This document shows positions 1 to 8,948 of a stretch of DNA of 8,948 nucleotides, piece by piece. Each line of letters begins with the position of its first letter. Within the stretch, counting starts at the first letter, position 1. A program made the position numbers and the translations under genes. The notes beneath the pieces are model-generated. The model made no database searches and had not been told where the DNA came from. It worked only from the letters and a program-made list of their open reading frames with translations. Origin of the DNA: Tardiphaga sp. (lineage in GTDB: Bacteria; Pseudomonadota; Alphaproteobacteria; Rhizobiales; Xanthobacteraceae); NCBI GenBank assembly GCA_028290765.1, contig JAQGJF010000519.1, positions 1 to 8,948 on the forward strand, read 5' to 3'.

Positions 1-1
1 C

Positions 2-1867
2 GGCGGCGCCACCTTCACGGCGCCGGTGGGCTGGAGCATCACCTCCGCCGCGAACAAGACCGTGCTCGAGCCACCGGAGGCCGACTCGCACCTTGCCATA
101 CTCGACGTGCAGGCCGCGGATGCGGACGCCGCGGTGGCGGCGGCCTGGGCCGGTTACCGTTCTGATGCGCGCCGGCCGCTCAGGCTGGCGACGCCGCAGG
201 CCCCCCTCAATGGCTGGGAAGAGCGGCGCCTCTATACCTATGAGACCTCGCCCAACGAAAAGGCCGTGGTCTATGCGCTGGCCTGGCGCGCGGGCCGGGA
301 TTGGGCGGTTGTCATCGTCGAGGCGGCGCAGTCGACCTTCGGCAAACGCAACTCGGCGTTTTCGCTGGTGATCGGAAGCTTGCGCCCCAAGGGATATCAG
401 CGCGAGCTGTTCGCCGGCAGGAAGGCCCATCCGCTCGATGCCGAGCGGATCGCCGTGCTCAAGACGTTCGCCCAGGATGTCATGCAGCAGTTCGACATTC
501 CGGGCGTCGGCCTCAGCCTCATCGACGGCGGCAAGGTCGTGTTTGAGGGTGGCCTCGGCGTGAAGACGCTAGGCAAGCCCGATCCGGTCGATGCCGATAC
601 GCTGTTCATCGCCGCCTCCAACACCAAGGCGATGACGACGCTGCTGCTGGCGGAACTGGTCGACGCGCACAAGATGCGATGGGACCAGCCGGTAACCGAA
701 CTTGATCCGGGCTTCCGGCTGGGCGATGCCGAGACCACGCGGCAGGTGCTGGTGAAACATCTGGTGTGCGCCTGCACCGGCCTGCCCCGCCAGGATTTCG
801 AATGGCTGTTCAATTTCGGAGCGGCCACGCCCGCATCGTCGCTCGGTCTGCTCGGCACCGTGCAGCCGACCAGCCGCTTCGGCGAGATCTTTCAATACAG
901 CAATCTCATGGCGGGTGCCGCCGGCTATGTGGCGGCCTCGCTGGTCAACCCGAAGCAGGAACTGGGCACGGCCTATGACGAGGCGATGCAATCGAAGGTG
1001 TTCGGGCCGCTCGGCATGACGCATACCACCTTCGACTTCGCCACGGCGCTGAACGGCAATGTCGCCGCGCCTCACGACGAGGACGTCGACGGCAAGACCG
1101 TGCCCGCCCGCATGGACATCAACTATTCGGTGGTGCCGCTGCGGCCGGCGGGCGGGATGTGGACCAGCGCCCGCGACCTGTCGAAATATCTCCAGATGGA
1201 ACTGGCGCTCGGCCGGCTGCCCGACGGCACCCAACTGGTCTCCCCGGAAAACCTGCTGGAGCGACGCAAGGCGCAGGTTCAGACCGGCGAGGATACCGCC
1301 TATGGCATGGGCCTCCTGATCAACACCCAGTACGGCATCCCGGTCATCAGCCACGGCGGCAGCATGTTCGGCTACAAGAGCGACATGATCTTCCTGCCCG
1401 ACCATGGCGTCGGCGCGGTGATCCTGACCAACTCCGATTCCGGCGGCTATCTGTCCGGGCTGTTCCGCCGCCGGCTGCTCGAGGTGCTGTTCGACGGAAA
1501 ACCCGAGGCGATCGAACAGGCCAAGGCCGCCGGTGCGCAGCGGCTCGCCAACCGCGCCAAGCGGCGCGAGCGGCTGGTGGTCCCGCCGGATGCGGCGGAG
1601 GCCGGCAAGCTCGCCGCGCGCTACGCTTCGCCCGCGCTGGGAACGCTGGCCGTCGGCGCCAAGGACGGCGCCACGATCTTCGATTTCGGTAAATGGTCCA
1701 GCGCGGTCGCTTCGCGCAAGAATGACGACGGGACCCTCTCCTTTGTCACCATCGATCCGACCGTCGACGGCTTCACTTTCGTGGTCGGCGAACGCGACGG
1801 CAAACGGGCGCTGATCATCCGCGACGCCCAGCACGAGTACCCGTTCATCGAACAGGCGTCGCAGTGA
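2..1867 (+). CDS. Serine beta-lactamase-fold hydrolase (class C / PF00144-like), 5'-partial
   Basis: The reading frame is open from base 2 through the TGA at 1865-1867, so the gene starts upstream of the window. The GTG at 26 lies inside the continuing frame, has no ribosome binding site and is unlikely to be the start. The nucleophile motif SxxK is seen as S-N-T-K at 617-628, the second motif Y-S-N at 896-904, and the third as H-G-G at 1352-1360 in place of K-T-G. This pattern fits the class C beta-lactamase / penicillin-binding esterase and peptidase family. About 130 residues precede the catalytic domain and do not match a domain I recognise. A C-terminal beta-rich segment of about 100 residues follows it, as in many 'serine hydrolase' proteins. 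HGG instead of KTG favours an esterase or peptidase over an antibiotic-hydrolysing enzyme, but that is inference. Any export signal would lie outside the window. The fold is well supported; the substrate is unknown. Confidence 0.9.
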   Translation, partial: GGATFTAPVGWSITSAANKTVLEPPEADSHLAILDVQAADADAAVAAAWAGYRSDARRPLRLATPQAPLNGWEERRLYTYETSPNEKAVVYALAWRAGRDWAVVIVEAAQSTFGKRNSAFSLVIGSLRPKGYQRELFAGRKAHPLDAERIAVLKTFAQDVMQQFDIPGVGLSLIDGGKVVFEGGLGVKTLGKPDPVDADTLFIAASNTKAMTTLLLAELVDAHKMRWDQPVTELDPGFRLGDAETTRQVLVKHLVCACTGLPRQDFEWLFNFGAATPASSLGLLGTVQPTSRFGEIFQYSNLMAGAAGYVAASLVNPKQELGTAYDEAMQSKVFGPLGMTHTTFDFATALNGNVAAPHDEDVDGKTVPARMDINYSVVPLRPAGGMWTSARDLSKYLQMELALGRLPDGTQLVSPENLLERRKAQVQTGEDTAYGMGLLINTQYGIPVISHGGSMFGYKSDMIFLPDHGVGAVILTNSDSGGYLSGLFRRRLLEVLFDGKPEAIEQAKAAGAQRLANRAKRRERLVVPPDAAEAGKLAARYASPALGTLAVGAKDGATIFDFGKWSSAVASRKNDDGTLSFVTIDPTVDGFTFVVGERDGKRALIIRDAQHEYPFIEQASQ

Positions 1868-1899
1868 TCCGCCGCGGGCAGCACGACCGCCATTCGGTT

Positions 1900-1928
1900 C
1901 CAGTTTCTGACCAAAACAAAGAAGCTGG
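1900..1928. repeat. Small imperfect hairpin after the hydrolase gene
   Basis: CCAGTTTCT at 1900-1908 pairs with AGAAGCTGG at 1920-1928 with one mismatch (G-U in RNA), leaving an 11-base loop. It lies about 30 bases after the hydrolase stop codon. There is no T-run behind it, so it is at best a weak transcript-end structure. TTCGGTTC just before it recurs at 1932-1939, suggesting it belongs to the repeat cluster of this gap. Confidence 0.35.
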
Positions 1929-1932
1929 AGTT

Positions 1933-1957
1933 TCGGTTCTGATTCAATCAGAACCGA
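1933..1957. repeat. 25-bp palindrome (TCGGTTCTGATT / AATCAGAACCGA)
   Basis: Two perfect 12-base arms are separated by one base. From memory, sequences with the core GGTTCTGATT are common intergenic palindromes in Bradyrhizobium-like genomes. No T-run follows on either strand, so I do not call it an intrinsic terminator, although the stem could act as an RNA 3' end. It stands immediately left of the segment that carries the REP-like element. Confidence 0.7.
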
Positions 1958-2136
1958 TCATGCGCCAGAGCGGGATGATTTTAAGTTAGTTCGGCGACAT
2001 CACCCCGTCATTGCGAGCGAAGCGAAGCAATCCAGGAGCCAAGAAGCAAGAACTGGATTGCTTCGTCGCAAGAGCTCCTCGCAATGACGGAGTTAGCTAT
2101 CCGATTCAGCTTAAAGCCATCATGCGCTAGAATTCG
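1951..2136. repeat. Composite repeat: related flanks on both sides of the REP-like element
   Basis: The segment 1955-1967 (ATCATGCGCCAGA region) and 2119-2132 (ATCATGCGCTAGA region) are direct copies with one mismatch. In addition 1968-1993 and 2101-2128 are imperfect inverted copies, each holding a TTTAAG/CTTAAA block followed or preceded by a TCGG/CCGA block. The REP-like element at 2005-2090 sits between them. This looks like one repeat placed inside, or assembled next to, another. The right-hand copy runs into the TctC gene and supplies its TAG stop codon at 2127-2129. Confidence 0.45.
2005..2090. repeat. REP-like dispersed palindromic element (CCGTCATTGCGAG family)
   Basis: The left arm runs 2005-2035, from CCGTCATTGCGAG to GAAGCAATCCAG. 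The right arm runs 2053-2090, from CTGGATTGCTTCG to CTCGCAATGACGG. The outer 13 bases and the inner 13 bases of the arms are perfect complements. The middle of the right arm is 7 bases longer, so the stem has an internal bulge. I recognise the 'cgtcattgcgagcgaagcgaagcaatccag' type, known as a very widespread intergenic repeat in several bacterial phyla, especially in Bradyrhizobium and its relatives. It lies in the convergent gap between the hydrolase and the TctC gene and may serve as a transcript-end structure for both. Confidence 0.8.
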
Positions 2137-3134
2137 ATCTTGGCCGCCTTGATCAAAGGGCCCCATTTGTTCAGCTCGCTGGCGATGAAAGCCTTCAGAT
2201 CGCCCGCCGAACCGCCTGCCCCCTGCATGCCGTTCTGCTCGAGGATCGCCTTGCCTTTGTCACTCGCGAGCCATGCATTCACGACCCCGTTGATGCCACG
2301 AACCACCTCGTCCGGCGCGTTTTTCGGAACGACGATCGCATACCACGCGCTCGCCTCGAATCCCGGCAGCCCGGCTTCGTTCGCCGTCGGGACATTCGGC
2401 AACTGGTTGGACCGTGCGGCCGACGTCACGGCGAGCGGTTTGAGCTTGCCGTCGAGGATCAAGGGCACATAGGCGGGCATGAAATCGATCGCGACATCGA
2501 CGGTCGCGCCCAACAGATCGGTCATCAGCGGCGTCGTGCCGCGATAGGCCACATGGGTGACCTTCACGCCTGTCATCTGCTGCAGCAATTCCGATGTGAT
2601 ATGGCCCAGCGTGCCGTTGCCGGGATGGCCCAGGTTGATTTTGCCGGGATTGGCCTTCGCGAAATCGATCATTTCCTTGAGGTCGGAAAATCCGCCGGCC
2701 TTCGCCGCGATGATCAGCGGCGACTTCGCGATCAGGACGACGGGCTCGAAGTCGGTTTCCGGATCATAGGGCATGTTCCGGTACATCAATTTGTTGAGCG
2801 CGATCGGCGCCGGCGTCGTGAACAAAATCGTGTAGCCGTCAGGCGTTGCCTTCGCCACGGCAGCCGCACCGATGTTGCCGCCCGCCCCGCCCCGGTTATC
2901 GATCACGAATGCCTTGCCGAGTTTGTCGGAGAGTTCCTGTGCCACCGAGCGCGCCAGAAGGTCGGCCGATCCGCCCGCGGGGAACGGCACGATCATCGTC
3001 ACGTTTCGCGCCGGCCAATTATCCGCGAGTGCGGGGCCGGCAAGCCACCCGGCGAACAAAGCCAGCAGCGCGCCACACCGGTATATCCTGCTGCGACGGA
3101 GCGTCGTGAAATGCGGCCTGAATGCGCTTGGCAA
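2127..3134 (-). CDS. TctC/Bug-family periplasmic solute-binding protein (orphan receptor)
   Basis: This is a 335-residue extracytoplasmic receptor of the tripartite tricarboxylate transporter (TTT) type, which binds small carboxylates in the periplasm. Family marks are P-F-P-A-G-G-S-A-D near residues 50-58, N-R-G-G-A-G-G-N-I-G-A near 80-90, P-D-G-Y-T near 98-102, and the H-V-A-Y-R-G-T block near 194-200. A basic stretch (RRSR) and a hydrophobic segment end in G-P-A-L-A before D-N-W-P, a good Sec signal peptidase I site. I chose the TTG at 3134-3132 because AGGGAGG lies 8 bases upstream of it (3149-3143 on this strand). The frame runs on to another TTG at 3191, which has no such site and would give an overlong leader. 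No TctA or TctB membrane genes are in the window; orphan receptors of this type are numerous in Bradyrhizobium and Bordetella. The gene is divergent from the lyase-like gene, so it may serve the same pathway, but the ligand is unknown. Confidence 0.9.
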   Translation of the reverse strand: MPSAFRPHFTTLRRSRIYRCGALLALFAGWLAGPALADNWPARNVTMIVPFPAGGSADLLARSVAQELSDKLGKAFVIDNRGGAGGNIGAAAVAKATPDGYTILFTTPAPIALNKLMYRNMPYDPETDFEPVVLIAKSPLIIAAKAGGFSDLKEMIDFAKANPGKINLGHPGNGTLGHITSELLQQMTGVKVTHVAYRGTTPLMTDLLGATVDVAIDFMPAYVPLILDGKLKPLAVTSAARSNQLPNVPTANEAGLPGFEASAWYAIVVPKNAPDEVVRGINGVVNAWLASDKGKAILEQNGMQGAGGSAGDLKAFIASELNKWGPLIKAAKIEF

Positions 3135-3142
3135 AGCGGTTA

Positions 3143-3149
3143 CCTCCCT
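3143..3149 (-). promoter_or_regulatory. Strong ribosome binding site AGGGAGG deciding a TTG start
   Basis: On the minus strand AGGGAGG is followed by 8 bases (TAACCGCT) and then TTG. Both the match and the spacing are near ideal. It fixes the start of the TctC-family gene at 3134 in preference to the upstream TTG at 3191. Confidence 0.75.
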
Positions 3150-3423
3150 GATCGTCTTGCTTGTGGCTGCGACTGTCGGCGAACGAGCCAACCGCAGCGT
3201 TTGCCAAAGCTATGGCAGCCGGCGCGGCCTTCGACCACCGCTATCCAGCAGCGTTCCGCAGAGTGGAATGGGTGGCAGCGCACTTAGTTGGTTCAAGCCG
3301 CCGCGGGAAATATCTCTCCGAGTGTGGCGCGGTTCACTCTCGCCCGCAACCGCGCGCCGCAGCTACCGCGTGCAAACCACGGCAACTCCATTGGCCATGG
3401 CGAGGCGGTGTACAACGGCCGAA

Positions 3424-3441
3424 AGCTTGTCTATACAAGCT
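3424..3441. promoter_or_regulatory. Operator A: perfect palindrome AGCTTGT-CTAT-ACAAGCT
   Basis: Two perfect 7-base arms surround a 4-base centre. The core TGT-N4-ACA is the form used by the HutC/UTRA branch of GntR regulators, one of which is encoded at 7732-8547. The 11-mer TTGTCTATACA in it (3427-3437) recurs on the minus strand at 7599-7589 in front of the ABC operon. It lies over the likely -35 box of the lyase-like gene, a typical repressor position. Confidence 0.75.
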
Positions 3442-3456
3442 GAGGCCATTCTGTAT
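3427..3456 (+). promoter_or_regulatory. Candidate promoter of the lyase-like gene (TTGTCT-N18-CTGTAT)
   Basis: TTGTCT at 3427-3432 and CTGTAT at 3451-3456 are 18 bases apart. CTGTAT differs at one base from CTATAT, the -10 consensus reported for alphaproteobacterial housekeeping promoters. Transcription would begin near 3463, giving a leader of about 20 bases. The -35 box lies inside operator A, so bound repressor would exclude RNA polymerase. The assignment is by eye. Confidence 0.4.
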
Positions 3457-3483
3457 CCCGTTCGCCACTCCATGGAGCAGTCT

Positions 3484-4515
3484 ATGTCGTCCCTCAAATC
3501 CTTCGCAGGCATCATTCCCTCGCCGCCGATCGTCTACACCGATCACCATTGCACGACGGTCGATTTCGAAGCCTATCGCGAGCATCTGGATTTTCTGCTG
3601 CGCCATGACATCTCGGCGCTTTGCGTCGGCGGCCATGCCGGCGAGACCGAATGCCTGCGCGACAAGGAACGGCAGGGCGTGATCAAGGTGGCGCTGGAGG
3701 CGAGCAAGGGCCGGGTGCCGGTGATCGGCGGCGTCGTCGCCGATTCCACCTGGAGCGCGATCGAGCAGGTGCAGTGGCAAAAGGAAGCCGGCGCCGATGG
3801 CGTGCTGGTGTGCCCGCCCAACATCGTGGGCTGGGACGCCGCGTCCGCCGACGCCATGCTGGTTGCGCATTTCAAGGCCATCGACGAGCAGGGCCTGCCG
3901 TTCATCGTCTATGGCGGCCCCGGCGATGGCAGCAGCTGCCGCCAGCTGCCCCCGACCATGGAAAAGACCGCGCGCGAATGCGTCAATCTGGTCGGATGGA
4001 AGCTTGCGGTGCGCGGCATCACCACCGGGGAGAACTCGTTCGCGGATTGCGTGTCGGCGTTGCAGCGGGCCGAGCAAGCCACCGGCCGGCACGTCGCGCC
4101 GCTGGTGGCGGGCGACGCCAACCTGCTGGGCGCGCTGCAGGCCGGCGCCGAAGGCACCATCAACGCCTGCGAAAGCGTGCGGGTCGATCAGAACTGTGCG
4201 CTGTTCGCCGCGTACAAGGCCGGCGACATCGCCACCGCTACCGCGATCCATGACCGCAACCAGAAGCTCGGCGCCACCATCTACGGCATTCGCCTCGGCC
4301 GCAGCTTCACGTATTTCCATTATCGCTTCAAGATCGCGAGCTGGATGCTGGGCTATATCAAGAGCCCCTACATGCGGCTCCCGCAGGTGCCGCCGCCGGC
4401 CGAAGAAATCGACATGCTGCATGCGGCCCTGATCGAGACCGGCATGACGCCGGTTCACACCGCCGAGGAATTCTGGGCGCCGCTGCGCAGCGGGTTCAAC
4501 GTCGCGGCGGAGTGA
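3484..4515 (+). CDS. DapA/NanA-superfamily lyase-like protein with altered active site
   Basis: This 343-residue TIM-barrel protein belongs to the dihydrodipicolinate synthase / N-acetylneuraminate lyase superfamily, cytosolic enzymes that make or break C-C bonds through a lysine Schiff base. The lysine is seen as K173 in N-L-V-G-W-K-L-A and the partner tyrosine as Y143 in V-Y-G-G-P. The usual G-T/S-T-G-E loop reads G-G-H-A-G-E (residues 49-54), so the threonine pair is replaced by His-Ala. The T-P-Y-Y block reads C-P-P-N (110-113), so the second DHDPS tyrosine is gone, and the DHDPS Arg138 position appears to be Asp. It is therefore unlikely to be DapA itself. I chose the ATG at 3484 because GGAG (3474-3477) lies 6 bases upstream; the in-frame ATG at 3472 has no such site. 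At 343 residues it is about 45-50 longer than typical DHDPS, mostly in the C-terminal part. It converges on the ABC operon and shares its operator motif, suggesting a catabolic role for the imported compound. The substrate is unknown. Confidence 0.88.
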   Translation: MSSLKSFAGIIPSPPIVYTDHHCTTVDFEAYREHLDFLLRHDISALCVGGHAGETECLRDKERQGVIKVALEASKGRVPVIGGVVADSTWSAIEQVQWQKEAGADGVLVCPPNIVGWDAASADAMLVAHFKAIDEQGLPFIVYGGPGDGSSCRQLPPTMEKTARECVNLVGWKLAVRGITTGENSFADCVSALQRAEQATGRHVAPLVAGDANLLGALQAGAEGTINACESVRVDQNCALFAAYKAGDIATATAIHDRNQKLGATIYGIRLGRSFTYFHYRFKIASWMLGYIKSPYMRLPQVPPPAEEIDMLHAALIETGMTPVHTAEEFWAPLRSGFNVAAE

Positions 4516-4529
4516 TTGCTAAACCTCTC

Positions 4530-4555
4530 CCGCGCGCGGCAATACGTTTTTTTTT
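4530..4555 (+). terminator. Possible weak intrinsic terminator after the lyase-like gene
   Basis: CCGCGCGCGG at 4530-4539 is self-complementary and is followed by a run of nine T at 4547-4555. The stem is very short (three pairs if a 4-base loop is kept) and lies 7 bases before the T-run, so it is not a textbook terminator. The T-run stands out in this GC-rich DNA and starts about 30 bases after the stop codon. Confidence 0.35.
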
Positions 4556-4576
4556 GGAGTGTGATGACGGCTCGTG

Positions 4577-4737
4577 ATCCCTCCCCCTTGTGGGGAGGGT
4601 CGGCCGAGCCTGCACGATGCGAAGCATCGTCCAGAAGCGGAGGCCGGGGTGGGGGTAGCCACAACGGAAACCTTTCTTGTGGCTACCCCCACCCGACCAG
4701 CCTCCGGCTGGCCACCCTCCCCACAAGGGGGAGGGAT
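4577..4737. repeat. 161-bp multi-hairpin palindromic element in a convergent gap
   Basis: The outer arms at 4577-4600 and 4714-4737 are perfect 24-base inverted copies (ATCCCTCCCCCTTGTG...). Inside are three further hairpins: ACGATGC-GAA-GCATCGT at 4614-4630; an 18-base perfect stem at 4647-4664 / 4677-4694 with a 12-base loop; and CCAGCC-TCC-GGCTGG at 4697-4711. Folded together they give a closed stem with three arms, a cloverleaf-like cruciform or RNA. From memory, 'CCCTCCCCCTTGTGGGGAGGG' palindromes are dispersed in rhizobial genomes. It lies between the ends of two convergent genes and could stop or protect both transcripts. No protein is encoded. Confidence 0.8.
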
Positions 4738-4798
4738 AAGAAAGAGCCGCAGCGACCGCCCGTTTCAAATGCGATCGTATGTCGCGCGTAACGCCGCC

Positions 4799-5590
4799 CT
4801 ACGCCCCCGGCCCGCTGACCGACGTCGCGCGGCGGTCTTCCCAGAACGCGAATTTGCGCCGGGCCAGGATCACGATCTGGCTCAGGATCACGCCGATCGC
4901 GCCGAGGATGACGATGCAGGCGAACATCAGCGCGATGTTGAAGTCGACGCCGGACGACTGGATCACGTAGCCGAGCCCGCGGCGCGAGGCGACGATTTCG
5001 GCGAGCACGGCGCCGAGCAGCGCCAGCACCACGCTGATTTCCAGGCCGGCGAAGATCGCGCCGAGCGCGGACGGAATCTTGATGCTGATCAGGATCTGCC
5101 AGCGGCCGGCGCCGAAGGTCTTGTACAGATCGGCGAGGTTGCGGTCGTAGGAGCTCAGGCCCACGAACGCATTGACGAAGGTCGGAAAAAAGCAAATCAG
5201 CGCGATCATCACCACCTTCGAGGCGAGATCGAAGCCGAACCACACCACCAGCAGCGGCGCCAGCGCGACCTTCGGGATCGCCTGGAACGCGATGATCAAC
5301 GGATAGACCGCGCGGCGGAACAGCGGAAATTCGGCCACCACCGCCGCCGAGATCAGCGCGCTGCCGCAGCCGAGCAAATAGCCGATGGCGATCGCCGCCG
5401 TGGTGGCGGCGATATGCGGCCACAGCGTGCCGCCGATCAGCCCGGCCTTCAGCGCGATCAGCACGTCGAGCGGCGGCGGAATGAGATAGGCCGGCACCGA
5501 AAACGCCCACACCGAGAATTGCCAGGCCGCGATCAGCAGGATGCTGGAGACGACCGGCAGCAGGATATTCAGAAGCCGGCTCTCACGCAT
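4799..5590 (-). CDS. ABC transporter permease, NitT/TauT (SsuC/TauC-like) family
   Basis: This is the 263-residue inner-membrane subunit of an ABC importer. It has about six hydrophobic segments, the first near residues 8-29 and the last near 219-242. The cytoplasmic coupling (EAA-like) loop lies near 153-176 (D-L-Y-K-T-F-G-A-G ... I-P-S-A-L). A-S-R-R-G-L-G-Y-V-I near 201-210 matches the conserved block of the nitrate/taurine/sulfonate permeases. Length is normal for the family. The ATG at 5590-5588 overlaps the end of the ATPase gene by 8 bases (ATGCGTGA), so translation is probably coupled. It is the last gene of the operon, and its TAG stop lies about 60 bases from the 161-bp multi-hairpin element. 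The substrate cannot be told from the permease. Confidence 0.93.
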   Translation of the reverse strand: MRESRLLNILLPVVSSILLIAAWQFSVWAFSVPAYLIPPPLDVLIALKAGLIGGTLWPHIAATTAAIAIGYLLGCGSALISAAVVAEFPLFRRAVYPLIIAFQAIPKVALAPLLVVWFGFDLASKVVMIALICFFPTFVNAFVGLSSYDRNLADLYKTFGAGRWQILISIKIPSALGAIFAGLEISVVLALLGAVLAEIVASRRGLGYVIQSSGVDFNIALMFACIVILGAIGVILSQIVILARRKFAFWEDRRATSVSGPGA

Positions 5591-6407
5591 GATGGGTCTC
5601 CGGTTTCACGGTCAGGAGCCGCCGTAGCCGATCGCAGATCGCAGAAAATTCCGCGGTCGCCATGCTGTCGAGGCCGCGCGGTCGCGGCAGCTTGACGTGC
5701 TCGGTGTGGATGATGCGGCCCGGCCGCGCCGACAGCACGATGACGCGATCGGCCATGAACACCGCCTCGGGAATCGAGTGGGTGATCAGGATCACCGATT
5801 TCTGCGAACGCTCCCATACGGTTTGCAGTTCGACCGTCATCTGGTCGCGCGTCAGCGCGTCCAGCGCGGCAAACGGTTCATCCATCAGCAGAAGTTTCGG
5901 ATCGTGCAGCAGGCCGCGCGCGATTGCCACGCGCTGCTGCATGCCGCCGGAGAGCTCATGTGGATAGTGGCTGGCGAAGGCCGACAGCCCGACCATGTCG
6001 AGCAGCGCCTCGGCCTGCCGCCGGTAGGTGTCGGAATAGATCCGCATCACCCGGACCGGCGCCAGCACGTTCTCCAGAACGGTCTTCCACGGCAGCAGCG
6101 TCGGCTGCTGGAACACGATGCCGACATCCTTGCGCGGCCGGTCGATGGTCTCGCCGCGCAGCACGGCCCGCCCCTGGCTCACCGGCAGCAACCCCGAGAG
6201 AATCCGCAGCAACGTCGACTTGCCGCAACCCGACGGTCCCAGCACGGCGACGAATTCGCCGTCGGCGACGTCGAGATCCAGCGGACCCAGCGCATCGAGC
6301 GGCCCGCGGCTGGTCGCATAGGTCAGCGCGACGCCTTGCAGCGAGAGGTTCGCGGAGCCGCGCGGCGCCGGCGGTGTCATGGCTGCGCCGCCGGGGCCGC
6401 CGGTCAT
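5583..6407 (-). CDS. ABC transporter ATP-binding protein, NitT/TauT (SsuB/TauB-like) family
   Basis: This 274-residue cytoplasmic ATPase drives import. All motifs are intact: Walker A G-P-S-G-C-G-K-S-T at residues 57-65, Q-loop F-Q-Q-P near 99-102, signature L-S-G-G-M-Q-Q at 152-158, Walker B L-L-L-M-D-E-P at 172-178, and switch His210 in I-T-H-S. The L-L-P-W after the Q-loop is typical of the nitrate/taurine/sulfonate branch. I chose the ATG at 6407 because it overlaps the stop of the binding-protein gene as ATGA, a common coupled junction. An ATG at 6380 would give 265 residues and cannot be excluded, since neither has a clear ribosome binding site. The open frame extends up to 6731, but that part is the binding-protein gene read out of frame. 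Confidence 0.93.
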   Translation of the reverse strand: MTGGPGGAAMTPPAPRGSANLSLQGVALTYATSRGPLDALGPLDLDVADGEFVAVLGPSGCGKSTLLRILSGLLPVSQGRAVLRGETIDRPRKDVGIVFQQPTLLPWKTVLENVLAPVRVMRIYSDTYRRQAEALLDMVGLSAFASHYPHELSGGMQQRVAIARGLLHDPKLLLMDEPFAALDALTRDQMTVELQTVWERSQKSVILITHSIPEAVFMADRVIVLSARPGRIIHTEHVKLPRPRGLDSMATAEFSAICDRLRRLLTVKPETHHA

Positions 6408-7477
6408 GGCTGCCAGGCCAGTGCTTTGGCCTTGACGGCGGCCTCGTCGAATTTGTTGAAGTCGTCGACGAATTGGTTGGTGAAGATCGACTCCGGCTTG
6501 ATGTCGCCGGTGGAGATCGTGCCGGCCTCGCGGAACGACGCCACCGAGGTGGTGGCGTCGCGGTCGCGAAAACTTCCCCATTTTTGCGGTTGGCCGTCCG
6601 CCACCGCGACCATGCGGTCGAGCCGCGCCTGCAGCAGCTGGAGCTGGCGCGCCACGGCGTCGCCGGTGACGCGGGCGCTGGGATCGAATTTCCAGTAGGA
6701 TTCCAGGCAGCCCTGCGGATTGGCCAGGCACGCCACCGTTCCCTTGGCCAGCGCGCGACCGAACCCGGCGACCAGCTTCGGCCGCTCGCGAATATCCTTG
6801 TTGGTGAACGGCAGACTATGGCTGGTCAGGCCGGCGAATTCCGGCGGGATATCGAGCATCCGGATTTTCGTGCCCTGCTGCAACAGCGTGACGTTGACGA
6901 TGTCGAACAGATTGAGCGCGTCGATGTTGCCGCGCCGCAGCGCTTCCATCGCCGGCACGCCGGTGCCGACCGGGATCATCGTCACCGTGGCCGGATCGAC
7001 GCCGGCATGGCGCAGGATCGACTTGGTCATCGGGACATTGCCGAAGGTCAGCGCGCCGACGCCGATGTTCTTGCCACCAAGATCCTTCAGCGACTTGATC
7101 GGGCTCGTGTCGAGCACCGAAATTTCCCAGGCCGACCTCGGCACCGCGTTATAGGCGAAGCGAACATCGAAATTCGGCTTGCCGGGTTCGCGCGACAGGA
7201 TCAGCGGATCGAGACCGATATAGGAGGTGAAGATCGTGCCGCTCATCATCTGCGGAATGATCACGGCGCCGCCGGGCAGCGTGATGACATCCATCTCGAT
7301 GCCTTCCTCCGCGAAGAATCCCAGCTCCTTGGCGAATGTAAAAGGTCCGACCGTGGCACTCATCGAGCCGGGCCAGGCGAAGGTGAGCTTTGTCAGTGCC
7401 TGCGCCGCCGCGGGCGATGGCGCCGCGGCCAGTGCGGCGGCGAGCAGCACGAATACCTTCCAGCAAGCGATCTTCAT
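6404..7477 (-). CDS. ABC transporter substrate-binding protein, NitT/TauT (NMT1/SsuA-like) family
   Basis: This 357-residue periplasmic receptor supplies the adjacent permease and ATPase. The N-terminus (M-K-I-A-C-W-K, then a hydrophobic stretch to P-S-P-A-A-A) is a Sec signal peptide with likely cleavage near residues 25-27. Family marks include K-E-L-G-F-F-A-E-E-G-I near 50-60, a G-G-A-V-I-I-P-Q-M-M-S-G stretch near 69-80 typical of the SsuA/ThiY lobe-1 binding region, and S-L-K-D-L-G-G-K-N-I-G-V near 129-140. I chose the ATG at 7477: it starts the signal peptide and has GGAG 9 bases upstream. The frame extends to 7612, but that part lies in the promoter and leader. It is first in the operon, with a leader of about 95 bases behind operator B. 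Nitrate, taurine, alkanesulfonates, thiamine precursors and aromatic acids are all known ligands of relatives, so the ligand is open. Confidence 0.92.
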   Translation of the reverse strand: MKIACWKVFVLLAAALAAAPSPAAAQALTKLTFAWPGSMSATVGPFTFAKELGFFAEEGIEMDVITLPGGAVIIPQMMSGTIFTSYIGLDPLILSREPGKPNFDVRFAYNAVPRSAWEISVLDTSPIKSLKDLGGKNIGVGALTFGNVPMTKSILRHAGVDPATVTMIPVGTGVPAMEALRRGNIDALNLFDIVNVTLLQQGTKIRMLDIPPEFAGLTSHSLPFTNKDIRERPKLVAGFGRALAKGTVACLANPQGCLESYWKFDPSARVTGDAVARQLQLLQARLDRMVAVADGQPQKWGSFRDRDATTSVASFREAGTISTGDIKPESIFTNQFVDDFNKFDEAAVKAKALAWQP

Positions 7478-7558
7478 CCGTGACGACTCCAGCGATGCCG
7501 CGCCGACGCAAGGCCCAAGTGCCGAAACTTCTGCCGAACTTCGCCGGCAGGATCCGCC

Positions 7559-7586
7559 TTGCATCCCCTGTATCGACTTGTATAAT
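7559..7586 (+). promoter_or_regulatory. Candidate promoter of the HutC-like regulator gene (TTGCAT-N16-TATAAT)
   Basis: TATAAT at 7581-7586 is a perfect -10 box, with TTGCAT at 7559-7564 spaced 16 bases upstream. Transcription would start near 7593, inside operator B, so the regulator is probably autorepressed. The leader would be about 140 bases. The -35 box is weak. Confidence 0.45.
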
Positions 7587-7600
7587 GCTGTATAGACAAC
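7577..7600. promoter_or_regulatory. Operator B: second copy of the TTGTCTATACA core
   Basis: On the minus strand TTGTCTATACA occupies 7599-7589, identical over 11 bases to the core of operator A. The palindrome is less perfect than in A, because the arm ends ACAG and not ACAA. A second half-site, TTGTATA at 7578-7584 on the plus strand, faces it across 6 bases, so two overlapping arrangements of half-sites exist. It lies within both candidate promoters and is probably bound by the product of the gene at 7732. Confidence 0.7.
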
Positions 7601-7606
7601 TGGCAA
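7579..7606 (-). promoter_or_regulatory. Candidate promoter of the ABC operon (TTGCCA-N16-TATACA)
   Basis: On the minus strand TTGCCA (7606-7601) has five of six bases of TTGACA, followed by 16 bases and TATACA (7584-7579). The operator core TTGTCTATACA fills the spacer between the two boxes, the classical position for a repressor. The -10 box shares its TATA with that of the facing regulator promoter. Confidence 0.5.
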
Positions 7607-7731
7607 CCGCAATTTGCCGACGATTGATTTTTAACCGCGACACTTCGTTGCGCCAGCAATCCCTGCGATGGATCGCGCCCCGCACGCAACCAGCTGGCGT
7701 GTTCAACCGGAAGCCAGCCCCCGGATGACCG

Positions 7732-8547
7732 ATGCCGAATGAGAATCCGCCGACCGCGCTCTATCGCAAGATGAAGACGTTCATCCAGGGACGCATCAAG
7801 GACGGCGACTGGAGCCCCGGCGACCGCGTCGTCTCCGAAGCCAATCTGGTGCGGGACTTCGGCGTGAGCCGGATGACGGCCAACCGCGCACTGCGCGAAC
7901 TGGCCGCGGAAGGCTGGCTCACGCGAATCCAGGGTGTCGGCACCTTCGTCAGCGAGCCCCCGGCGCAATCCGAGATCGTCCGGATTCGAAGCATCGCCGA
8001 AGAAATCCGCGAGCGCGGTCATACCCACCGCAGTGTTCTGTGCAAGTTGAAGGAGACGCCCGCCAGCGAAGCCGTGGCCAAGTCACTTGGCGTCAAGCCA
8101 GGCGCGCGGGTGTTTCATTCGGTGATCGTGCACTCCGAGAATGACGTCCCGATCCAGGTCGAGGACCGCTTCGTCAATCCGGCGATCGCGCCGGACTATC
8201 TTGCGGTCGATTTTTCCAGGACGACCCCCAACGAATATCTGGTCAAGGTGGCGCCGATCGGACAGGTCCGGCATGTCATCGAAGCCGTCAAGCCGAACGC
8301 CCGCGTCCAGAAGCTGCTCAAGATACCGCGCGACGAACCCTGCCTCTGCCTGTTTCGACAGACCTGGACCGGACAGATTGCCGCCAGCTGTGCCTGGTTG
8401 ACTCATCCCGGCAGCCTGTACCGCATGGTCGCGCAGTTCATGCAGCCGTTCAGCGGTTTCGACAACTTGCAACCGCCATCGGCGGCCCGCCTCCACGAAG
8501 CGGCAGCCACGAAAAAAATGGCAGGCCGCAGCACCCGAACCAAATAG
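7732..8547 (+). CDS. GntR-family transcriptional repressor, HutC-like (UTRA domain)
   Basis: This 271-residue DNA-binding regulator has an N-terminal winged helix (residues about 8-75) with the HutC-type recognition region S-E-A-N-L-V-R-D-F-G-V-S-R-M-T near 35-49 and the wing Q-G-V-G-T-F-V at 67-73. A UTRA ligand-binding domain follows (about 80-240). Its blocks I-R-S-I-A-E-E-I-R, H-S-E-N-D-V-P-I-Q-V-E-D-R-F-V-N-P and T-T-P-N-E-Y-L closely resemble the histidine-utilisation repressor HutC, which senses urocanate. Beyond residue 240 it carries a basic, low-complexity tail of about 30 residues not usual in HutC. The ATG at 7732 is the first possible start, as an in-frame TGA lies at 7726. The ribosome binding site is weak. 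It is divergent from the ABC operon and shares a control region with it. No hut genes are in the window, so it is more likely a paralogue controlling the local transporter and lyase genes. Confidence 0.92.
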   Translation: MPNENPPTALYRKMKTFIQGRIKDGDWSPGDRVVSEANLVRDFGVSRMTANRALRELAAEGWLTRIQGVGTFVSEPPAQSEIVRIRSIAEEIRERGHTHRSVLCKLKETPASEAVAKSLGVKPGARVFHSVIVHSENDVPIQVEDRFVNPAIAPDYLAVDFSRTTPNEYLVKVAPIGQVRHVIEAVKPNARVQKLLKIPRDEPCLCLFRQTWTGQIAASCAWLTHPGSLYRMVAQFMQPFSGFDNLQPPSAARLHEAAATKKMAGRSTRTK

Positions 8548-8565
8548 CAGCTTCGGCGGCAGGCC

Positions 8566-8948
8566 TCAGGCGCGTTTTGCCAGCGACGCGGGAAGATCGT
8601 CGCTCGCGTCCAGTACAACATCCGCATGGGTCAAATTGCGGAAATTGCCGATTCCAGCCGGACGTCCGAGCAGATACCCCTGCACCTCGTCGCACAGCTC
8701 GTCCTGCAGGAATTGCAGCTCGGCGTCGGTCTCGACGCCTTCGGCGAGCACCGGGAGGCCCAGCCCGCGACCGAGGCCCAGCACCGCCCGGACGATGGTC
8801 GCGGCCTGATCGTTGGAATTGACCGACTTGATGAAGGAGCCGTCGATCTTGATCTTGTCGAACGGGAACGCCCGCAGGTTGGCGAGCGACGAATAGCCCG
8901 TGCCGAAATCGTCCATCACGACGTGGGCCCCCAGCGTCTTGATGCGGC
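8566..8948 (-). CDS. EAL-domain cyclic-di-GMP phosphodiesterase, C-terminal part (5'-partial)
   Basis: The frame is open from the right edge of the window to the TGA at 8568-8566, so only the last ~127 residues are seen. They form the C-terminal half of an EAL domain, which hydrolyses cyclic di-GMP to pGpG. Visible are the metal-binding D-D-F-G-T-G-Y-S-S, the catalytic lysine in D-K-I-K-I-D, the glutamate in A-E-G-V-E-T, and Q-G-Y-L-L-G-R-P. These residues are intact, so this half looks active; the E-x-L signature lies outside the window. An internal ATG at 8919 is within the domain and is not a true start. Any sensor or GGDEF domain would be off the right edge. It converges on the HutC-like gene with an 18-base gap and is probably unrelated to the transport cluster. 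Confidence 0.92.
   Translation of the reverse strand, partial: RIKTLGAHVVMDDFGTGYSSLANLRAFPFDKIKIDGSFIKSVNSNDQAATIVRAVLGLGRGLGLPVLAEGVETDAELQFLQDELCDEVQGYLLGRPAGIGNFRNLTHADVVLDASDDLPASLAKRA

Follow-up and report, generated by a model that had tools for sequence, protein, structure and literature searches.

The histidine-utilization (hut) operons of bacteria, in which HutC controls transcription, are the closest described counterpart of the locus presented here. The HutC-subfamily operator has a published core, GTMTAKAC, which was derived independently of the DNA studied here, and many groups of the GntR family have weaker extra boxes at 7–12 nt from the centre of the site, according to the source (PMC4494728). 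In Pseudomonas, urocanate weakens HutC binding at the hutU promoter, as reported in PMC12977541. Among the titles and opening abstract lines of the open-access papers surveyed, neither a thiourocanate cluster under HutC control nor an enzyme of the DHDPS type linked to urocanate came up. Here, we analyze a stretch of 8,948 nucleotides from Tardiphaga sp. (contig JAQGJF010000519.1, positions 1 to 8,948; hereafter the window), in which a HutC-family regulator gene, a divergent ABC transporter operon, and a gene for a DHDPS-fold protein are accompanied by two operator-like sites, O1 and O2. Regulation of the transporter and of the DHDPS-like gene by a HutC-type repressor is supported by comparison with related genomes, and we consider it likely that the module is a small HutC-type regulon, in which the repressor acts on O1 and O2, an imidazole-acrylate is the inducer, and the enzyme feeds the degradation of urocanate or of its sulfur-containing counterpart, thiourocanate.

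Candidate operators and their placement at orthologous promoters

An earlier note on this DNA had pointed out an 11-mer, TTGTCTATACA, at 3427–3437 on the forward strand and at 7589–7599 on the reverse strand, with no third exact copy, and this is confirmed by our analysis. A first-order Markov model predicts 0.0001 exact copies in the window. When up to two mismatches are allowed, the sole additional match is the opposite strand of the first site (three matches in total), compared to a mean of 0.25 in shuffled sequences, none of 200 of which reached three. The only two matches to the published core GTMTAKAC in the window are those at O1 and O2, and as many were reached by 2 of 1000 Markov sequences. 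Both matches are intergenic and lie ahead of gene sets, as predicted HutC operators should. The note had placed each copy in the promoter region of a gene set and had described two convergent transcription units; the position of the sites upstream of gene sets and the convergence of the ABC genes with the lyase-like gene are both confirmed. The perfect 18-bp palindrome that it reported at 3424–3441 is imperfect: AGCTTGTCTATACAAGCT pairs at 16 of 18 positions, with 7-bp arms and an unmatched C/T pair at 3431/3434. The O1 centre is 51.5 bp ahead of the DHDPS-like start codon, and the O2 centre is 116.5 bp before the start of the binding-protein gene and 138.5 bp before that of the regulator gene. 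The surroundings of O2 display three TGTA words at exactly 10-bp steps, a feature absent from the note, as well as a direct repeat (CTGTATCGAC/CTGTATAGAC, within 7569–7599) and a TATAAT at 7581–7586, immediately upstream of O2.

The regulator passes the cut-off of the NCBIfam HutC equivalog TIGR02018 (293.6 bits vs 220) and contains a GntR helix-turn-helix domain (PF00392, 58.9 bits) and a UTRA domain (PF07702, 106.5 bits). Its best PDB match is 2pkh, a histidine utilization repressor. The previous assignment to the HutC/UTRA class of GntR regulators is thereby upheld, and the presence of GTMTAKAC at both sites fits this class. In a 29-row tree, the HutC proteins of the window and of two of the relatives described below (L001 and L002) fall into one 15-row clade (97/96) together with 12 unlabelled relatives, separate from six HutCs of other genomes (L044–L048) and from two HutCs of rhizobial ert plasmids, although unsettled bootstrap values and several long branches make the details of this tree unsure. 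In L044, L045, and L047, an ammonia-lyase-family gene is the only hut-set gene beside HutC in the stretch read. The window regulator is best read as a HutC paralog.

A single pattern-based scan of 84,980 species genomes, by which only close relatives are detectable, yielded three loci with a DHDPS-like gene at 64–70% identity: L001 in a Rhodospirillales metagenome-assembled genome (MAG; G001), L002 in a Bradyrhizobiaceae MAG of 4.9 Mb (G002), and L003 in an Eremiobacterota MAG (G003). Sampling of related genomes returned the gene in 1 of 297, 1 of 391, 1 of 39, and 1 of 99, always in the already known MAG, and a protein search found no counterpart in the plasmid collection. All three clusters include genes for the ABC permease, the ATPase, and the binding protein. 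In L001 and L002, a HutC gene is located directly behind the DHDPS-like gene. In L003, an IclR-type regulator gene lies just ahead of it, and G003 contains no HutC above the cut-off. Furthermore, five longest-contig sizes (2590, 9372, 17760, 36025, and 62912) are common to the DHDPS-like and HutC matches in a comparison of 34 with 50 rows, an indication that the two genes reside on the same contigs; the 62912 pair apparently represents the protein clusters of L002 itself.

Scanning the three loci with the window motif gave one place, ahead of the DHDPS gene of L002. Genome-wide, TTGTMTATACA occurs once in G002, before the orthologous DHDPS-like gene, and not at all in G001 or G003. As the reversed pattern, used as a control, also has one match in G002, this count is at chance level and its weight rests on position: the centre of the G002 site is 51.5 bp from the start codon, the same distance as in the window. 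The pattern was then widened to TTRTNTATACAW after variant boxes had been seen at other cluster promoters, so the counts that follow are partly dependent. G002 has three matches, all on the 23-kb cluster contig and at cluster promoters, namely the divergent UbiD/Rieske promoter, the promoter of DHDPS-hutC, and that of the ATPase-permease-ErtD-ErtE-desulfurase-hydratase operon. The single match in G001 is upstream of the genes for the solute-binding protein, the DHDPS-like protein, and HutC; genome-wide, G003 has none. The reversed TTRTNTATACAW control gave seven matches across 22 genomes, none of them in G001–G003. The motif is thus found ahead of the orthologues that are accompanied by a HutC-type regulator and is missing where an IclR-type regulator takes its place.

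A HutC search in 19 further genomes gave seven with a protein above the cut-off. Boxes of the same form are present at the hut promoters of three of these: all three TTRTNTATACAW matches of G455 are on the hut contig, two of the four in G335 lie between HutI and HutF, and among the seven in G609 two are between HutF and HutI, one is between HutH and HutC, two flank a further HutC gene, and two have no match in the query set. Separately, locus L046 of G335 combines two HutC genes with genes resembling those of urocanase, HutG, HutI, and HutF, and no PF00221 protein was found in that genome, which is possibly a urocanate-only degrader.

The neighbours of the module in its relatives belong to two different lower pathways. 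In L002, thiourocanate hydratase, thiohydantoin desulfurase, ErtD, and ErtE all score above their NCBIfam cut-offs, as do thiourocanate hydratase and thiohydantoin desulfurase in L003. The G001 cluster (L001, L016) contains HutI, HutF, and HutG above the cut-off, as well as a urocanase-family protein about 11 kb from the DHDPS-like gene, which, at 704 bits, falls short of the cut-off of 930 bits for thiourocanate hydratase. The clusters of all three relatives include a gene for a Rieske-type oxygenase, and those of L002 and L003 also UbiD-family genes. The aromatic ammonia-lyase family PF00221, of which we take ergothionase to be a member, was found in one of five genomes (G455) and not in G001, G002, G003, or G335, absences for which MAG incompleteness may account. 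The remainder of the G002 contig (L013), where gene names were taken from the translations of open reading frames, carries a MarR-type regulator, two more Rieske-type genes, and an Fe3+-type ABC transporter adjoining the cluster.

The DHDPS-fold protein

The structure model of the protein encoded downstream of O1 (mean pLDDT 88.6) matches DHDPS structures in Foldseek searches and shares the TIM-barrel fold of the DHDPS/N-acetylneuraminate lyase superfamily (PF00701), with a TM-score to 3pb2 of 0.93 by target length and 0.81 by query length. The protein is under the cut-off of all seven NCBIfam families that it matches. Its identity as DapA (4-hydroxy-tetrahydrodipicolinate synthase) was rejected (TIGR00674, 90 bits vs a cut-off of 206.15), as were the KdgD and NanA assignments, each below its cut-off. 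Among 3955 candidates from 5.8 billion sequences, 77 proteins matched it at E <= 1e-40, and 19 of these were aligned with the window protein. K173 is invariant in all 20 sequences and lines up with the VGVK of 6xgs, such that the Schiff-base lysine position of the superfamily is retained. In solved DHDPS chains and pyruvate-binding members of the superfamily, the loop that presumably binds the carboxylate of the keto acid is of the GTTGE type. It reads GGHAGE instead in the window protein and in 16 of the 20 aligned sequences overall, the four distant ones displaying other letters. A further difference from the superfamily is the C-terminal part containing FTYFHYRFKIASWMLG. Judged from its sequence, the protein belongs to a rare subfamily of its own, characterized by the GGHAGE motif and the invariant K173, and the modelled fold together with the lysine make a Schiff-base mechanism likely. 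The "C-C lyase" of the earlier note fares accordingly in part: the fold and the Schiff-base lysine are present, but the carboxylate-binding loop is altered and C-C cleavage is unproven.

In all three relatives, GTCTATAC also occurs within the DHDPS-like coding sequence near its start, where it coincides with V-Y-T codons (L001 7049, L002 7049, L003 7025); it is not found there in the window. These intragenic copies are probably a codon coincidence.

Layout of the window

The features of the window are listed in Table 1. The gene for the TctC-type protein, which was absent from the earlier note, is divergent from the lyase-like gene, with O1 between the two. The distance from the O1 centre to the TctC gene is 298.5 bp, and it is uncertain whether O1 controls this gene as well. 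The inverted repeat between the convergent units may terminate transcription in both directions or represent an intergenic repeat element. Another inverted-repeat region (1933–2128) separates the hydrolase gene from the TctC gene and comprises a perfect 12-nt hairpin (1933–1957), a perfect 13-nt stem (2023–2035/2053–2065), and 51-nt arms that are 71% complementary (1967–2017/2078–2128).

Table 1 Genes and sequence elements of the window
Feature	Coordinates	Strand	Basis or remark
Serine-hydrolase/beta-lactamase-fold protein	2–1867	+	Cut by window edge
TctC-type solute-binding protein	2127 to ~3134	−	PF03401, 220.9 bits; putative TTG start behind GGAGGT
Candidate operator O1	3424–3441	.	Core 3427–3438, TTGTCTATACAA; imperfect 18-bp palindrome
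DHDPS/N-acetylneuraminate-lyase superfamily protein, 343 aa	3484–4515	+	PF00701, 112.5 bits
Inverted repeat between two convergent units	4577–4737	.	Nested 24-nt arms and inner 18-nt arms, each 100% complementary
ABC transporter permease (SsuC/TauC-like)	4799–5590	−	Family matches; 59–62% identity to L001–L003 cluster copies
ABC transporter ATPase (SsuB/TauB-like)	5583–6380	−	Family matches; 67–74% identity to copies in relatives' clusters (L001, L014, L003)
NMT1/SsuA-type substrate-binding protein, leads ABC operon	6404–7477	−	PF09084, 79.4 bits; 57–58% identical orthologue in G001, G002, and G003 clusters
Three TGTA words, 10-bp spacing	7569, 7579, 7589 (7569–7599)	+	Last word within O2; read from sequence
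Candidate operator O2	7588–7599	−	TTGTCTATACAG on − strand; between ABC operon and regulator gene
GntR/UTRA regulator, HutC family	7732–8547	+	TIGR02018, PF00392, PF07702 matches
EAL protein, partial	8566–8946	−	

Proposed regulon, rival explanations, and comparison with known systems

Combining these observations, we infer binding, repression, the ligand, the transported substrate, and the enzyme reaction as follows. A HutC-type dimer bound to O2 would block transcription of the regulator gene itself and of the ABC operon divergent from it, and one bound to O1 would block that of the gene for the DHDPS-fold enzyme. Uptake and breakdown would be kept off as long as the inducer is absent, and the inducer would release the repressor. 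Considering the known chemistry of the HutC family and the neighbours of the module in its relatives, the inducer would most likely be an imidazole-acrylate (urocanate or thiourocanate) that either derives from the imported compound or is that compound itself; its action is modelled by analogy on the effect of urocanate on Pseudomonas HutC. The DHDPS-fold protein would have as its substrate a compound feeding into the degradation of urocanate or thiourocanate. The proposal of the earlier note that one repressor could switch the transporter and the lyase together is supported, at the level of sequence, by a comparison of three genomes, in which the sites are conserved at orthologous promoters in G001 and G002 and absent from G003, and its uncharacterised uptake-and-breakdown module can be defined more sharply, as its relatives connect it with the catabolism of urocanate or thiourocanate. 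A more specific version is tentative, and we would not expect it to hold in full: the module would be an entry into urocanate or thiourocanate degradation that is free of an ammonia lyase (HutH or ergothionase), in which a compound of the histidine, hercynine, or ergothioneine type is taken up through the ABC transporter, the DHDPS-fold enzyme and the Rieske oxygenase (with UbiD in some) convert it to the acrylate, and a dedicated HutC paralog provides control.

A number of observations weigh against the proposed regulon. The gene context is known from three relatives in all, every one of them a MAG, and in L003 the proteins resembling ErtD and ErtE do not reach the cut-off. No hut or ert gene was found among the eight window proteins scanned against NCBIfam and Pfam. 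O2 is asymmetric, with one TTGT half, one CTGT half, and no palindrome beyond the core, and a sigma-70 promoter scan gave nothing at O1 or O2 at its threshold. A scoring matrix built from six sites in L037, L038, and L043 ranks O1 first in the window (25.0), O2 second with a lower score (14.1), and a third place at 7.0, but these six sites had been preselected for similarity to the window motif, which makes the ranking partly circular and supportive only. Among 200 shuffled sequences, three reached 14.1 as their best score and none as their second-best; the best score in L003 is 3.0. The strict core GTMTAKAC is not matched by the variant boxes of L001, L014, L016, and L002 (position 11885). 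Twelve genomes without a HutC match contain eight TTRTNTATACAW places, five of them in G307; G560, G572, and G535 have a single match each, located on a different contig from their HutC genes; and G441, with a HutC above the cut-off, has no match. Lastly, P. aeruginosa HutC senses PCA, so that HutC ligands need not be urocanate, and its sites bear little similarity to the earlier consensus, according to PMC12772324.

Chance as the origin of the repeated 11-mer is disfavoured and appears very improbable to us: the motif is short, its second copy is asymmetric, and the reversed control is equally frequent in G002 (1 and 1), yet the counts expected by chance in the window are low for both the 11-mer and GTMTAKAC, and the position of the site is conserved in relatives. 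It is also unlikely that O1 and O2 are bound by a second, canonical HutC encoded elsewhere in the genome, or by both paralogs, in which case the module would be a remote member of the ordinary hut regulon and the regulator encoded next to it would serve another function. All seven of the 19 searched genomes with a HutC above the cut-off contain two or three HutC genes, and three of them (G335, G455, and G609) have hut promoters with boxes of the same form; however, G001 and G002 each hold one HutC above the cut-off, the module's own, and the boxes are present nonetheless.

We likewise doubt that the regulator has drifted to another inducer, such that the compound processed by the module is an unrelated aromatic or keto-sugar acid and the hut and ert neighbours are coincidental. 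Many substrates are known for NMT1-type transporters and for DHDPS-fold enzymes, the window is devoid of hut and ert enzymes, and the module is accompanied by Rieske genes in all three relatives and by UbiD genes in L002 and L003, two gene types that are not known from the hut or ert routes. Such a drift is, however, difficult to reconcile with the fact that all three relatives have urocanase-family genes no more than about 11 kb away from the DHDPS-like gene, in two different versions of the lower pathway. The regulon with an imidazole-acrylate inducer would connect an enzyme subfamily that is rare and has no assigned reaction to a regulator whose type is known and whose chemistry is likely known, which leaves a short list of candidate substrates. 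If correct, HutC regulons reach thiourocanate breakdown, and soil bacteria may possess a second route into urocanate or thiourocanate, which bears on the recycling of ergothioneine-type sulfur.

The transporter resembles SsuABC/TauABC-type systems in gene composition and families, but all three of its proteins score under the listed SsuABC/TauABC cut-offs. In nine of nine plasmid ert loci, no DHDPS-fold gene of the module's kind was found within up to 10 kb, and a HutC-family gene adjoins the ert genes in two (L022 and L029). The HutC-family proteins of these two rhizobial plasmids are distant ones above the cut-off (285 and 278 bits), and HutC-like boxes are found at L022 1756, L022 5686, and L029 4817, the first of them within an oxidoreductase gene, at its annotated 5′ end, which suggests that HutC controls thiourocanate breakdown in the rhizobial plasmid lineage as well. 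Thiourocanate hydratase, thiohydantoin desulfurase, ErtD, and ErtE are not encoded in the window, but the module is clustered with genes of thiourocanate/ergothioneine catabolism in L002 and partly in L003. Compared to hut operons, the window HutC is located beside an NMT1-type ABC transporter and a DHDPS-fold enzyme instead of HutH, HutU, HutI, HutF, or HutG. What the locus shares with these operons is a HutC above the cut-off, a site in the regulator's own upstream region, and an operator form that is the same as that of the boxes at the HutI/HutF and HutC/HutH promoters of G335, G455, and G609.

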